The position numbers were made by a program, and so were the translations under genes. Source: Celeribacter sp. PS-C1 (lineage in GTDB: Bacteria > Pseudomonadota > Alphaproteobacteria > Rhodobacterales > Rhodobacteraceae). Taken from it: 64,000 bases of DNA. Below, one piece after another: positions 42,190-60,318 of this stretch. The notes beneath the pieces were generated by a model, which saw nothing but the letters and a program-made list of their open reading frames with translations, had not been told where the DNA came from and made no database searches. The stretch is from positions 310,001 to 374,000 of the forward strand of contig NZ_JAHXRW010000001.1 of the NCBI RefSeq assembly GCF_019429625.1, read 5' to 3'. Each line of letters opens with the position of its first letter. The stretch's first letter is position 1.

Positions 42190-42262
42190 GCTGAGCGCTC
42201 AGAAAGCCACTAATTCGATCCGCGGGACACCTCTCCCCAACGAGAGGCATTTATCTGGAAGG
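42190..42262 (+). promoter_or_regulatory. Candidate serC-type leader RNA
   Basis: The 5' region of serC carries a hairpin, CCTCTC/GAGAGG with a 6-nt loop (42230-42247), followed by a short T-rich stretch and then the Shine-Dalgarno AAGGATA. Alphaproteobacterial serC-serA operons are known to carry a structured leader (serC RNA motif) ending in a terminator-like hairpin near the start codon. The position and shape agree; I could not compare it with the covariance model. Confidence 0.45.
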
Positions 42263-42270
42263 ATAGCATT

Positions 42271-43413
42271 ATGGCTACCAAGCACCCGCAGGCGCGCCCT
42301 GCGAATCCGCGTTTTTCGTCCGGCCCTTGCGCCAAAATCCCCACATTCTCTCTTGATCTGCTGGCTGACGCGCCTCTGGGCCGTTCGCACCGTGCCAAAG
42401 TTGGCAAGGAAAAGCTGAACGCCGCGATCGAGACGACCCGCGACATTCTTGGCATCCCTGCCGATTACAAAATCGGTATCGTGCCCGCTTCCGACACCGG
42501 CGCCGTTGAAATGGCCATGTGGTCCCTTCTGGGGGCTCGTAAGGCCACGATGGTTGCCTGGGAATCCTTCGGTGCTGGCTGGGTCACCGACGTTGTCAAA
42601 CAGCTCAAGATCGACGCTGATGTGAAAACCGCTGACTACGGTCAGATCGTCGATTTCGCTGACATTGATTTCAACACCGATGTGGTCTTCACTTGGAACG
42701 GCACCACCTCCGGCGTGCGCGTGGCCAATGGCGATGCGATCCCGGCCGACCGCGAAGGTCTGACCATCTGTGACGCGACCTCTGCGGCCTTCGCGATGGA
42801 CCTGCCTTGGGACAAGCTCGATGTCACCACCTTCTCCTGGCAGAAGGTGATGGGCGGCGAAGCGGCTCATGGCATCATCGTGCTCTCCCCGCGCGCCGTT
42901 GAGCGTCTGGAAAGCTACACGCCCGCATGGCCGCTGCCGAAAATCTTCCGCATGACCAAAGGCGGCAAGCTGATCGAAGGCATCTTCAAAGGTGAAACGA
43001 TCAACACGCCCTCGATGCTTGCGGTCGAGGATTATCTTGTGGCGCTTGAGTGGGCGCAAAAGATCGGCGGCCTGCCGAAACTGATCGAACGTTCGACCAC
43101 CAATGCGAAAGTGCTTTGGGATTTCTGTGATCGTCATGACTGGATCGCCAACCTCGCCGAAGATGAGGCCACGCGGTCGAACACCTCTGTGTGTCTGAAG
43201 TTCACCGATGACCGCATCAAGGACGGTGCAGCCTTCGCGAAAGCCGTGGCCAAGAAGCTCGAAGATTACAACGTCGCTTATGACGTTGGTGCCTACCGCG
43301 ATGCTCCTGCCGGTCTGCGGGTTTGGTGTGGTGCGACAATCGAAGCCGCTGATGTCGAGGCGCTGACGCTTTGGCTCAAGTGGGCCTTCGAAGAGTGCAT
43401 CGCTGAGCAATAA
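42271..43413 (+). CDS. serC: Phosphoserine aminotransferase
   Basis: SerC is a PLP enzyme that converts 3-phosphohydroxypyruvate to phosphoserine using glutamate. The N-terminus [16 protein letters not shown] is typical of the alphaproteobacterial form. The PLP Lys lies in [21 protein letters not shown] (about residue 192), with [12 protein letters not shown] and [12 protein letters not shown] before it. It is 380 aa, normal. AAGGATA precedes the ATG. serA follows 92 bp downstream. Confidence 0.96.
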
Positions 43414-57920: not shown

Positions 57921-58562
57921 ATGAAACAGCTTCTTCTTGGCATTCTTGCCATGGCCGCCATTGTTGTGGCCTCCAACATCCTCGTTCAATTCCTGCTCCT
58001 CGACGGGCTGCTGACCTGGGGTGCCTTCACCTATCCTTTCGCCTTCCTCGTCACCGATGTGATGAACCGCGTGTACGGGGTGCAGTCCGCGCGCAAAGTC
58101 ATCTTCGCGGGCTTTGTTGCCGGCATCGTCTGTTCCCTCATCGGCACGCAAATCACGCTGCAAGGCGATGGCTATACCTATCAGGCCGTCGCTCTGCGTG
58201 TCGCCGTGGGCTCCGCCACCGCCTTTCTGATCGCCCAGCTTGTCGACGTCTTCGTCTTCAACCGGATGCGCGATGGCTCGTGGTGGAAAGCACCTTTCAC
58301 TTCGTCGCTCGTCGGCTCTGCGCTCGACACCGCGATTTTCTTCACCATCGCGTTTTCGCAAAGCATCACTGTCTTTGGCGAGAATGCCGATATGGAAGTG
58401 TCCTGGGCCTGGGACGCCGTGCCCTTCCTCTTGGTCGGTCAACCGGTTCCGCTCTGGATTTCGCTCGCTGTGGCCGATTGGGGTCTAAAATTCGCTCTCG
58501 CATTGATCGCTCTCGTGCCTTTCCGCCTAATTGTTGGGCGCCTCACGGCACGTATGGTATAA
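57921..58562 (+). CDS. Queuosine precursor transporter (YhhQ/VUT family)
   Basis: This is a 213-aa inner-membrane protein with six helices. The YhhQ pattern FAFLVTDVMNRVYGVQSARKVIFAGF near residue 40 is clear, as is LVDVFVFNRMRDGSWWKAPFTSSLVGSALDTAIFFTIAF. The family imports preQ0/preQ1 or queuine-type bases for tRNA modification. ATG 57921 was chosen because the first helix begins there. The 92 bp upstream contain an A-run (GATAAAAAACGGG) but no convincing preQ1 riboswitch. A leader-like RNA follows it downstream. Confidence 0.87.
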   Translation: MKQLLLGILAMAAIVVASNILVQFLLLDGLLTWGAFTYPFAFLVTDVMNRVYGVQSARKVIFAGFVAGIVCSLIGTQITLQGDGYTYQAVALRVAVGSATAFLIAQLVDVFVFNRMRDGSWWKAPFTSSLVGSALDTAIFFTIAFSQSITVFGENADMEVSWAWDAVPFLLVGQPVPLWISLAVADWGLKFALALIALVPFRLIVGRLTARMV

Positions 58563-58616
58563 ATTTACTTGCTATATACCAAATCTGTGGCACCATCATC
58601 TTATCGGCAATTCATC

Positions 58617-58633
58617 GAAAGGAGGTGGTCCAG
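58617..58633 (+). promoter_or_regulatory. Extended Shine-Dalgarno complementary to the 16S rRNA 3' tail
   Basis: GAAAGGAGGTGGTCCAG can pair with 17 consecutive bases of the standard 16S 3' end (CTGGATCACCTCCTTTC), with one G-U pair. Ordinary sites pair over 4 to 7 bases. It runs straight into the GTG start of an 18-codon frame, with no normal spacing from its far end. Confidence 0.8.
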
Positions 58634-58689
58634 TGTCTAGAGTGATGTTGGAGAGCGAGGTCAAGACAGTCGGGGGGGCCGCCACCTAG
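58633..58689 (+). CDS. 18-codon micro-ORF in the arfB leader
   Basis: The GTG at 58633 opens a frame for an 18-residue peptide, VSRVMLESEVKTVGGAAT, ended by TAG. The core AGGAGG lies about 8 nt upstream of the GTG, a usable distance. The peptide has no known match that I can recall. It may matter for being translated more than for its product, since the frame lies in the leader of arfB before a terminator. Confidence 0.5.
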   Translation: MSRVMLESEVKTVGGAAT

Positions 58690-58756
58690 AGGAAAAATCT
58701 AGTGTGAAACACTCCTGATTGGGTGTCCTAACTGACCCCATCTCCTGAGATCTCGG

Positions 58757-58784
58757 AGGGCTGCTCTATCTGGCAGCCCTTTTC
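58757..58784 (+). terminator. Intrinsic terminator immediately before arfB
   Basis: AGGGCTGC and GCAGCCCT pair perfectly around an 8-nt loop, followed by TTTTCC and another TTTT. It ends 22 bp before the arfB ATG, so arfB transcription has to pass it unless a promoter lies inside that gap, where none is visible. Confidence 0.88.
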
Positions 58785-58805
58785 CTTTTGCGGTATCTGT
58801 TCACC

Positions 58806-59219
58806 ATGCCCCTGACCGTCACAGATCAAATCACCATCGCCGATTGGGAACTGACCGAGCAATTCATCCGCTCGTCCGGTCCCGGCGGGCAGAACGTGAA
58901 CAAGGTCTCGACGGCGGTCGAGCTCCGGTTCGAAGCCGCCCGCTCGCCTAATTTGCCCGAACCCGTGAAGAACCGCCTGCGCCGTCTGGCTGGACGCCGC
59001 TGGACTAAGGAAGGTGCCGTCGTCATTCAGGTCGAAGAAACCCGCTCGCAGGCGCGGAACAGAGAGATCGCGCGGGAACGACTGGCGGAGCTGGTGCGGA
59101 AAGCCACGGAAAAGCCGAAACGCCGGATCAAGACGAAACCGACGAAGGGCAGTGTGGAACGGCGGATCAAGGCGAAGAAGGAACGGGGGGAGGTTAAGAA
59201 GTTGCGGGGGAAGGTATAG
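58806..59219 (+). CDS. arfB: Alternative ribosome-rescue factor B (ArfB)
   Basis: ArfB releases peptides from ribosomes stalled on truncated mRNA. The catalytic GGQ is in RSSGPGGQNVNKVSTAVEL (residues about 20-38). The C-terminal tail is Lys/Arg-rich (KPKRRIKTKPTKGSVERRIKAKKERG), the part that enters the empty mRNA channel. It is 137 aa, normal. ATG 58806 is the usual family start; no strong Shine-Dalgarno precedes it. It sits directly behind the leader RNA with its own terminator, which suggests controlled expression. Confidence 0.93.
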   Translation: MPLTVTDQITIADWELTEQFIRSSGPGGQNVNKVSTAVELRFEAARSPNLPEPVKNRLRRLAGRRWTKEGAVVIQVEETRSQARNREIARERLAELVRKATEKPKRRIKTKPTKGSVERRIKAKKERGEVKKLRGKV

Positions 59220-59273: not shown

Positions 59274-59810
59274 GTGACGGATAATTCGGCAAGCTCTAAA
59301 CGAGGTTTCTTAGTTGGAGCTATTTACGTTTCTTTGGGTATTCATGTCCTGTGGCTTATATTGTTTTCTTTCGTTATTTTGGTCGGTCCTTTCCAAAAAA
59401 ACAGAGATGATTGTTCGCAGTTTGCTCAATCTATTGAAGTGTTCCAGATATGTGAGTTGGGAGAATTGGCAGGAAATGCACTGGCAACTGCTGGTCAAAT
59501 GGGCAGATTAGATATCGTCAGTCTTTCCTTAACTGTGCTGGGAGTTGTTTTGGCTTCTGCTGCGCTAGGTAGCTTTTTTCTCATCAGGGGCGCTGCGAAA
59601 GATGCCGCAGCTGATGAAGCCGTTGAATGGCTTGATAAGAAGAAATCTCAACTGATTACGACAGAGCTAGTAGAAAAGTCCATTTTAAATGATAGGATTG
59701 TATTGACACTTGCAAATGAAGTGGAAAAGCGCATATCGCACAATAAAGATGGAATCGATGGAAAAACCGCAGACTCTATTGCTGAATCGATGAAAAATGA
59801 TGAACTCTAA
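59274..59810 (+). CDS. AT-rich two-helix membrane protein, unknown
   Basis: This is a 178-aa protein with two membrane helices (about residues 12-38 and 80-104). A loop of about 40 residues between them contains two Cys (DDCSQ, QICEL). The C-terminal region is charged and helical (about 112-178, WLDKKKSQLITTELVEKSILNDRIVL). No family is recognised. It starts with GTG at 59274 with AAGGA upstream. Base composition is much richer in A and T than the flanking genes, suggesting recent transfer. It overlaps the ImmA/IrrE gene by 14 bases, so the two form a unit. Confidence 0.7.
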   Translation: MTDNSASSKRGFLVGAIYVSLGIHVLWLILFSFVILVGPFQKNRDDCSQFAQSIEVFQICELGELAGNALATAGQMGRLDIVSLSLTVLGVVLASAALGSFFLIRGAAKDAAADEAVEWLDKKKSQLITTELVEKSILNDRIVLTLANEVEKRISHNKDGIDGKTADSIAESMKNDEL

Positions 59811-60318
59811 TTTTCGAGACATAGCGGCTAAACATCTTGGGCCACCGGTCAACATTGAAGCGATTATTCGCTCAATGGGTATTGCCTTGAATAAAAAGGC
59901 TGATCTTGATGACCAGATATCTGGGCAGTTAAAACGTTTGCCTGCGAACAAGTTTGAAATATCTGCAAATAAATCAGATCATTATTTCCGCCAGAGATTT
60001 ACTATGGCGCATGAGCTTGGCCATTATCTTTTGCATGCGCATTTAATCGGCGAGGGTGTGGATGACAGCGTTGCGTACCGTAGTGAACCCTTTGGCGAAT
60101 TTTATAATGAAATGATATCTGCAACGGAAGAAACCGAAGCAAATCAATTTGCTGCACGGTTGTTGATGCCTAAAAGTAAGATCATAGAGTGTGTTGGTGT
60201 CGGCGATTCCATTTCTGAACTCGCAAAAAAATTTCAGGTTTCCAAGCAGGCAATGAATATACGGCTTCAAGCACTCGGATACATAATTGACGCAGATAAA
60301 GTGGGAGTTATTCCTTAA
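59797..60318 (+). CDS. ImmA/IrrE-family metallopeptidase
   Basis: This is a 173-aa zinc peptidase. The HExxH motif is AHELGHYLLHAH (His72, Glu73, His76) and the downstream metal Glu lies in EETEANQFAARLLMP (about 111-125), the ImmA/IrrE signature. A helix-turn-helix-like end follows (ISELAKKFQVSKQAMNIRLQALG). Known members cut a repressor (ImmR in ICEBs1, DdrO in Deinococcus). No repressor lies here; the partner is a membrane protein, so the trigger or target may be membrane-linked. The AT-rich composition is shared with its neighbour. Confidence 0.88.
   Translation: MMNSNFRDIAAKHLGPPVNIEAIIRSMGIALNKKADLDDQISGQLKRLPANKFEISANKSDHYFRQRFTMAHELGHYLLHAHLIGEGVDDSVAYRSEPFGEFYNEMISATEETEANQFAARLLMPKSKIIECVGVGDSISELAKKFQVSKQAMNIRLQALGYIIDADKVGVIP

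Follow-up and report, generated by a model that had tools for sequence, protein, structure and literature searches.

A small RNA related to CC2171 in Alphaproteobacteria that appears built to be gripped and read by ribosomes

The locus and its complementarity to the 16S rRNA tail

In the window, by which we mean the whole 64-kb stretch of Celeribacter sp. PS-C1 DNA that was analysed, a small RNA with a micro-ORF of its own lies between a transporter gene and an RF-1 domain gene. The latter we take to be arfB, the name that the earlier sequence-only reading had also given it. The features of the locus, with the evidence for each in brackets, are as follows.

57921..58562, + strand: gene of the Vut_1 transporter family, upstream neighbour (Pfam PF02592)
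58569..58596, + strand: probable promoter, with -35 TTGCTA at 58569-58574 and extended -10 TGTGgCACCAT, hexamer at 58591-58596 (position conserved in Rhodobacterales relatives)
58603..58784, + strand: predicted discrete small RNA, divergent but related to CC2171 (RF01867), about 182 nt long (R1 model match at 58611-58786)
58617..58633, + strand: complement of the 16S rRNA 3' tail, which is an extended Shine-Dalgarno (SD) site, GAAAGGAGGTGGTCCAG (16 Watson-Crick pairs and one G.U)
58633..58689, + strand: micro-ORF of 18 codons from GTG (58633-58635) to TAG (58687-58689), MSRVMLESEVKTVGGAAT (sequence and comparison)
58640..58654, + strand: 5' strand of the closing helix, at 58640-58642 and 58650-58654 (covariation counts, alignment A2)
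58667..58721, + strand: hairpin H1, 58667-58674 with 58714-58721, enclosing the stop region of the ORF (covariation, A2)
58675..58688, + strand: GGGGCCGCCACCUA, rival of the mimic as partner of the SD segment (duplex energy, window RNA)
58730..58745, + strand: internal mimic of the 16S 3' tail, AACUGACCCCAUCUCC (minimum-energy fold)
58741-58745, + strand: UCUCC inside the mimic, also a 3' strand of the closing helix (fold)
58752..58754, + strand: outer 3' strand of the closing helix, CUC (covariation counts, A2)
58758..58783, + strand: intrinsic terminator with stem GGGCTGC/GCAGCCC at 58758-58764/58773-58779 and TTTT at 58780-58783 (terminator scan and comparison)
58806..59219, + strand: arfB, an RF-1 domain protein gene with its ATG at 58806, downstream neighbour (Pfam PF00472)

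Downstream of arfB, a frame at 59797-60318 carries an HELGH motif and by eye presumably resembles an ImmA/IrrE-type metallopeptidase. Elsewhere in the window, at 42220-42271, lies a serC leader RNA (RF00517, 73.3 bits).

The 17-base tail match described by the sequence-only reading holds against the genome's own 16S gene, which ends ...GGCTGGATCACCTCCTTTCT, with one G.U among the 17 pairs; a perfect tail complement would read GGTGATCC, from which the site at 58617-58633 differs at one position. The rest of the layout in that reading, namely a GTG-started frame of 18 codons, hairpins and a terminator 22 bp 5' of the arfB ATG, was likewise confirmed in the sequence. When the 3.87-Mb genome was searched with the perfect-complement pattern at up to 3 mismatches, 16 matches were returned (reversed control pattern: 4), consisting of the 16S gene (0 mismatches), the site at 58617-58633 (1), one match with 2, which by eye resembles coding sequence, and 13 with 3; apart from the 16S gene, the site is the best tail-complement match in the genome. 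Within the window, AAAGGAGGTGNTCCAG gave one zero-mismatch match, with a chance expectation of 0.12 at up to 2 mismatches and at least one match in 12 of 100 shuffles. The computed energy of the duplex with the 16S tail is -30.4 kcal/mol, and that of AGGAGG is -9.2. An rRNA fragment or an assembly artefact was ruled out as the source of the match: the likeness to the antisense strand of 16S ends after CAG.

The same segment recurs in relatives. The exact 21-mer GAAAGGAGGTGRTCCAGTGTC was found in at least 120 genome-contig stretches, and the genera represented among the matches listed include Bradyrhizobium, Bosea, Methylobacterium, Ancylobacter, Rhodopseudomonas, Brevundimonas and Falsiroseomonas. 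The 120 loci taken from this search (L056-L175) were chosen by the 21-mer, and the tail match and the GTG start are present in them by construction. Support independent of the 21-mer comes from 48 loci found by blastn, all located by the SD pattern, of which 36 were exact, five carried an A and seven deviated; GAAAGGAGGTGRTCCAG is exact in 41 of the 48. A further independent set consists of 20 fetched regions, 16 of them readable, among which a single one has GGAAGG; the four unread regions include both matches from outside the class. The 5' segment is nearly invariant in these comparisons and, besides being complementary to the 16S tail, is placed as the ribosome-binding site for the micro-ORF.

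Transcription unit and relation to arfB

For the comparative counts, 168 loci were sorted by sequence filters into a Rhodobacterales type (101), a second type (53) and a Bradyrhizobium type (14). The filter misplaced L112 into the Rhodobacterales type and L024 and L025 into the second type; this was corrected for the micro-ORF counts, the synteny counts were made without L112, and the uncorrected groups were used for the internal-duplex shuffles and the SD-core pairing probabilities.

In 129 of 133 loci a terminator-like hairpin with a score of 20 or more sits where one is expected, compared with 5 of 266 control windows, and a terminator scan across all groups found one in 165 of 168. Upstream, 60 of 99 Rhodobacterales-type loci (4 of 94 control stretches) have a perfect TTGACA between 80 and 30 nt before the tail match, and 77 of the 99 best -35 boxes sit 47-50 nt upstream of the tail match and are followed by an extended -10, as seen in a profile of 86 rows. 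The window's own -35 (TTGCTA) is weak, and a simple sigma-70 scan of 58400-58900 returned no promoter, neither for arfB nor for the RNA; from the conserved position of the boxes we infer a transcription start near 58603. Taken as predictions, these elements make it well supported that the RNA is an autonomous unit with its own terminator and, in relatives, its own promoter.

The sequence-only reading had seen in the same elements a leader of arfB, in which the transcript would stop at the terminator and the behaviour of ribosomes on the micro-ORF would set read-through into arfB. The terminator lies 22 bp before the arfB ATG with no promoter between them in the simple scan, so that transcription of arfB would, on this account, necessarily proceed by read-through, and 60 of 86 Rhodobacterales-type loci have arfB downstream within 1 kb in the same orientation. 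As that reading had remarked, arfB itself has no visible Shine-Dalgarno site; for Caulobacter, the available text of one source reports that 75.4% of genes lack such a site at their start (PMC4117421). However, the RNA is kept where arfB does not adjoin it: no arfB was found within 1 kb downstream in the other 26 Rhodobacterales-type loci, it lies downstream in 0 of 11 Bradyrhizobium-type loci, and both of the 2 cases among 44 other loci are the misplaced Rhodobacterales rows L024 and L025. Beyond the Rhodobacterales, the open frame that comes next may be on one strand or the other, and among 120 of the at least 120 contig loci the biggest downstream protein cluster, that of arfB, takes in 15 loci by open-frame calling. 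Where arfB does follow the terminator, the distances listed range from an overlap of 2 nt or a gap of 10 nt up to 189 nt, with one of 564 nt, and the upstream Vut_1 transporter gene is linked more frequently than arfB, in 86 of 92 Rhodobacterales-type loci. Moreover, no antiterminator was seen in the folds examined, in which the competing structures involve the SD and the closing helix and not the terminator stem. The leader claim is thus not borne out by the comparison, and control of arfB as the main role was dropped, as the RNA is conserved without arfB next door in other Alphaproteobacteria; we regard the leader mechanism as distinctly improbable. On this comparative evidence the RNA is not chiefly an arfB switch, and arfB is treated here as a neighbour.

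Family, fold and micro-ORF

In an Rfam scan, the window RNA matched CC2171 (RF01867) with 29.6 bits (E 9.7e-5) and missed the threshold, the gathering score being 75; the match covers the RNA end to end on the right strand (model positions 1-159 of 159), with 99 inner model positions lacking a detailed alignment. A covariance model built from 38 non-Rhodobacterales sequences (R1) finds the window RNA at 58611-58786 with 48 bits (E 3.7e-14), and 10 of 18 non-Rhodobacterales loci scanned exceed the RF01867 gathering score. Because these intermediates link it to members above the threshold, we take the window RNA as a divergent homologue of CC2171, although it falls below the Rfam cut-off itself. 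The two share the same 5' start (Rfam consensus cAAcaAucGAAAGGAGGUGAUCCAGUGUCU), a 3' terminator hairpin and the end-to-end model match. CC2171 is listed in Rfam as an sRNA gene, whereas the window RNA folds differently inside and carries a frame of 18 codons.

The family is widespread in the class. With 211 bases as query, blastn found the RNA in 19 of 20 genomes of the same genus and 159 of 248 of the same family, and a covariance model of the Rhodobacterales type matched 221 of the 248. With E 0.001 as the limit, the R1 model matched 101 of 385 class genomes; with E 0.0001 it matched 74 of 349 phylum genomes, a sample that includes class members, and 72 of these matches belong to the class, the other two being weak and from outside it. 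The RF01867 model at E 0.01 matched 69 of 289 class genomes, nine of them above its cut-off, and 2 of 14 control genomes, namely Caulobacter vibrioides, as expected, and Deinobacterium chartae, which is probably a chance match. A distant blastn search of the plasmid collection found no copy.

Several individual loci deserve mention. Genome G278 carries two different copies (L259 and L260), each with SD and micro-ORF, so that paralogues exist. The 21-mer is also present in six viral contigs (L272-L277), in four of which (L273, L274, L276 and L277) it lies near the end of the available stretch; from these end positions, the RNA gene may form a border of integrated elements. One 21-mer match falls in a bin labelled Gemmatimonadota (L074) and is followed by unlike sequence, which points to chance or a mislabelled bin. 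The accessible part of a study on Mesorhizobium huakuii gives a sequenced product of 215 nt for a homologue, MH_s33, and reports RNA-seq products for all predicted sRNAs of that organism, riboswitches aside, but MH_s6 (PMC5596092).

Two alignments were used to examine the fold: A1 with 38 of the 53 second-type rows and A2 with 76 of the 101 Rhodobacterales-type rows, after odd, truncated, near-identical and terminator-less rows had been removed by hand. Helix columns were picked from duplex predictions ahead of the counting. In the fold of A1 (non-Rhodobacterales), the opening codons are paired with the stretch right before the terminator, and there are, besides the terminator, a further helix and an inner hairpin; double-sided changes occur in 24 of 33 pairs, and the covariation of 0.268 compares with 0.175 in shuffled alignments (reached in 0 of 500) and at most 0.129 when the columns were slid. 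In A2 (Rhodobacterales), the closing helix, H1 and the terminator together have double changes in 14 of 23 pairs, with a covariation of 0.280 versus 0.187 shuffled and at most 0.126 slid. Within A2, both sides change in five of the eight pairs of H1, in which 90.6% of cells are paired, and in six of seven counted pairs of the terminator stem. The closing helix is missing from the minimum-energy fold of the window RNA. The search for covarying hairpins suggested by the sequence-only reading was thus positive, covariation lying above that of the shuffles in both alignments. Any ribosome moving along the frame would presumably need to melt these helices.

The micro-ORF is kept along with the fold. 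Of 93 distinct rows of the Rhodobacterales type, 84 have a frame of 18 codons; 13 of 14 Bradyrhizobium-type rows have 14 codons, and in the other 51 rows the length ranges from 14 to 33 codons, 25 being the commonest. Where the stop aligns in 76 Rhodobacterales rows, we counted TAG 30 times, TGA 27, TAA 10, TGG 0 and other codons nine times; about 12 TGG would be expected from base frequencies (Fisher p 1.1e-10, uncorrected for kinship), and on a quick tree at least 20 changes from one stop codon to another are counted. The second type has a variable distance between the GTG and CTGGA, yet a single frame is kept in 34 of 39 rows. The start codon of other lineages is ATG in 13 and GTG in 3 of the 16 readable regions. 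Several ATG-started versions (L252-L271, with the same SD) show the motif EQPS or EQPL towards the end of the frame. Variability by codon position is flat (0.267, 0.258 and 0.294), and the peptide, recognisable within the Rhodobacterales type as near MSRVILERGVGTVRGAVA, differs strongly between lineages. Looking by eye through 120 translations from the at least 120 21-mer loci, we saw no series of codons for an amino acid that the RNA might sense. Since the stops are conserved while the codon variability is flat and the peptides diverge, initiation, length and termination seem to matter and not the product; the pattern indicates that the micro-ORF is under selection for its start, length and stop, whereas the peptide itself seems not to be.

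The reading in which the RNA is just the mRNA of a functional small peptide was set aside. The conserved start, length and stop, and a peptide recognisable within the Rhodobacterales type, are what such an mRNA would have, but third-position change is not in excess, the divergence between lineages is strong, and many of the conserved nucleotides are explained by RNA pairing; among the alternatives weighed here, we consider this one the least credible.

The conserved stops also bear on two explanations that build on the SD segment. In the first, the RNA would act as a decoy or reservoir that holds 30S subunits by tail pairing and buffers or lowers initiation elsewhere, the ORF merely loading and releasing ribosomes. 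A computed tail duplex well beyond that of an ordinary SD and a conserved helix right after the SD fit this idea. It would, however, require an abundance like that of the ribosome, and the conserved stops and the short in-frame ORF suggest genuine translation and not a dead-end trap, so that we consider a decoy unlikely. In the second, the RNA would be a sponge for anti-SD sRNAs. SisA-D-type sRNAs carry CCUCC loops, and the GAAAGGAGGUGAUCC segment could capture sRNAs with loops of this kind, much as SisA-D are bound by CrfA in Caulobacter. For the class, the available text of one source documents a sponge RNA that takes up the four SisA-D sRNAs (PMC12559287). A sponge would nevertheless need neither the complementarity that extends beyond CCUCC through the remaining 16S tail nor the conserved stop codons, and we hold this explanation to be very unlikely.

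Conservation in relatives extends to the tail match, the micro-ORF and the hairpins alike, so that the lack of conservation which the sequence-only reading had named as refuting was not found, and its proposal that the RNA may grip a ribosome tightly is compatible with all three. Among known systems, the rnTrpL/peTrpL attenuator leader of Sinorhizobium also has a short frame on a small RNA with hairpins and a terminator (PMC10117765, accessible part); in the window RNA, by contrast, no conserved downstream gene, regulatory codon run or conserved peptide was seen, and it has a strong SD where that leader has a leaderless start. Pos19 of Rhodobacter, a small coding or dual-function sRNA, is, in the partial record consulted, likewise a small RNA with a small ORF, but the ORF of the window RNA has a ribosome site complementary to the 16S tail, and this site is retained throughout much of a class. 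The extended Shine-Dalgarno initiation of Staphylococcus aureus shares an SD longer than usual, whereas here it spans 15-17 nt and lies in a structured small RNA and not in mRNAs at large (PMC13009471, available portion). For Caulobacter, the accessible text of a ribosome profiling study describes ncRNA regions as mostly untranslated and two earlier ncRNAs as translated (PMC4117421).

Proposed masking of the SD segment and a possible mechanism

Within the RNA, the SD segment has potential partners of its own. Partners in the best internal duplexes were read from the rows listed (30 of 99, 27 of 53 and 14 of 14 for the Rhodobacterales, second and Bradyrhizobium types): in many listed Rhodobacterales-type rows the partner is AACUGGCCCAUCUCC or similar, and in many listed second-type rows it is CUGGAUC-N-CGCCUC or similar, both of which nearly reproduce the 16S tail. 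An internal SD duplex as good as the best one arose in no more than 3 of 60 dinucleotide shuffles for 68 of 99 Rhodobacterales-type, 22 of 53 second-type and 4 of 14 Bradyrhizobium-type rows. The mean pairing probability of the SD core was 0.91 in 50 Rhodobacterales-type RNAs, 0.58 in 27 of the second type and 0.80 in 14 of the Bradyrhizobium type, every second row of the two larger groups having been used. In the minimum-energy fold of the window RNA, AGGAGGUGG pairs with CCAUCUCCU of the mimic, and CCAUCUCC of the mimic is paired with the SD. The strongest single SD duplex of this RNA (row L001) is with GGGGCCGCCACCUA at 58675-58688 (-20.1 kcal/mol, equalled by 3 of 60 shuffles).

The helix between SD and mimic is complementary in 85.6% of cells and has no covariation beyond that of shuffles, because the SD side barely varies. 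Given complementarity without covariation, we do not present this pairing as a proven switch and retain it as something we infer; nor is the mimic treated as universal, as a convincing copy is absent in several divergent members. These models make it plausible that the internal mimic competes with the ribosome for the SD segment.

Based on these findings, we propose that the locus encodes an autonomous, ribosome-loaded small RNA related to CC2171 whose fold changes with ribosome loading and translation, a reading to which we assign a probability of roughly 0.6. The hypothetical mechanism comprises the following steps, in which (i) the free RNA, in this lineage, would have its SD site masked by internal pairing, often with the tail mimic; (ii) 30S subunits would bind the RNA by pairing with the 16S tail and then translate the micro-ORF; (iii) mimic and ribosome would compete for one segment, so that the shape of the RNA would report the ease of ribosome loading; (iv) translation would open the closing helix, formed here by codons 3 to 8 and the stretch right before the terminator; and (v) the output, on which we can only speculate, would most likely be either pairing in trans of the freed anti-SD-like UCUCC segment at the 3' side or an effect of occupancy on the stability of the RNA. 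Trans pairing of the freed 3' segment or control of the RNA's own lifetime is, as a conjecture, favoured over control of arfB.

The proposal could be widened to a class-wide ribosome gauge, in which the RNA carries antisense and sense-like copies of the 16S tail, free 30S subunits compete with the mimic, and a ride of 14-33 codons frees an anti-SD segment that tunes translation elsewhere. We hold this wider version to be unlikely, and slightly more so because the strongest single SD duplex of the window RNA is with GGGGCCGCCACCUA and not with the mimic.

CC2171 was reportedly first described by Landt in 2008. It appears as a table row in the accessible part of the Rfam 15 paper (PMC11701678), and the available literature on CC2171, including that on Caulobacter, yielded no function. 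Titles and opening lines of abstracts on sRNAs with anti-SD, 16S or the neighbouring genes contained no report of this RNA; the same applies to the titles and abstract openings of PMC5082802 and PMC10117765, and the accessible parts of PMC11005374 and PMC12559287 do not name it. Because the literature searched holds no description of it, we call the 16S complementarity unreported; within those searches, the conserved micro-ORF, the class-wide spread and the tail mimic are new as well, the family name being already known.

In summary, an RNA catalogued as an sRNA gene and listed as non-coding looks, from sequence and comparison, as though it were built to be gripped and read by ribosomes. A frame that is kept open and short without conservation of its peptide suggests that being translated is itself the function. 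Should the shape of the RNA depend on ribosome supply, as our preferred reading of an autonomous, ribosome-loaded small RNA would have it, the RNA would be a natural sensor of translation capacity.
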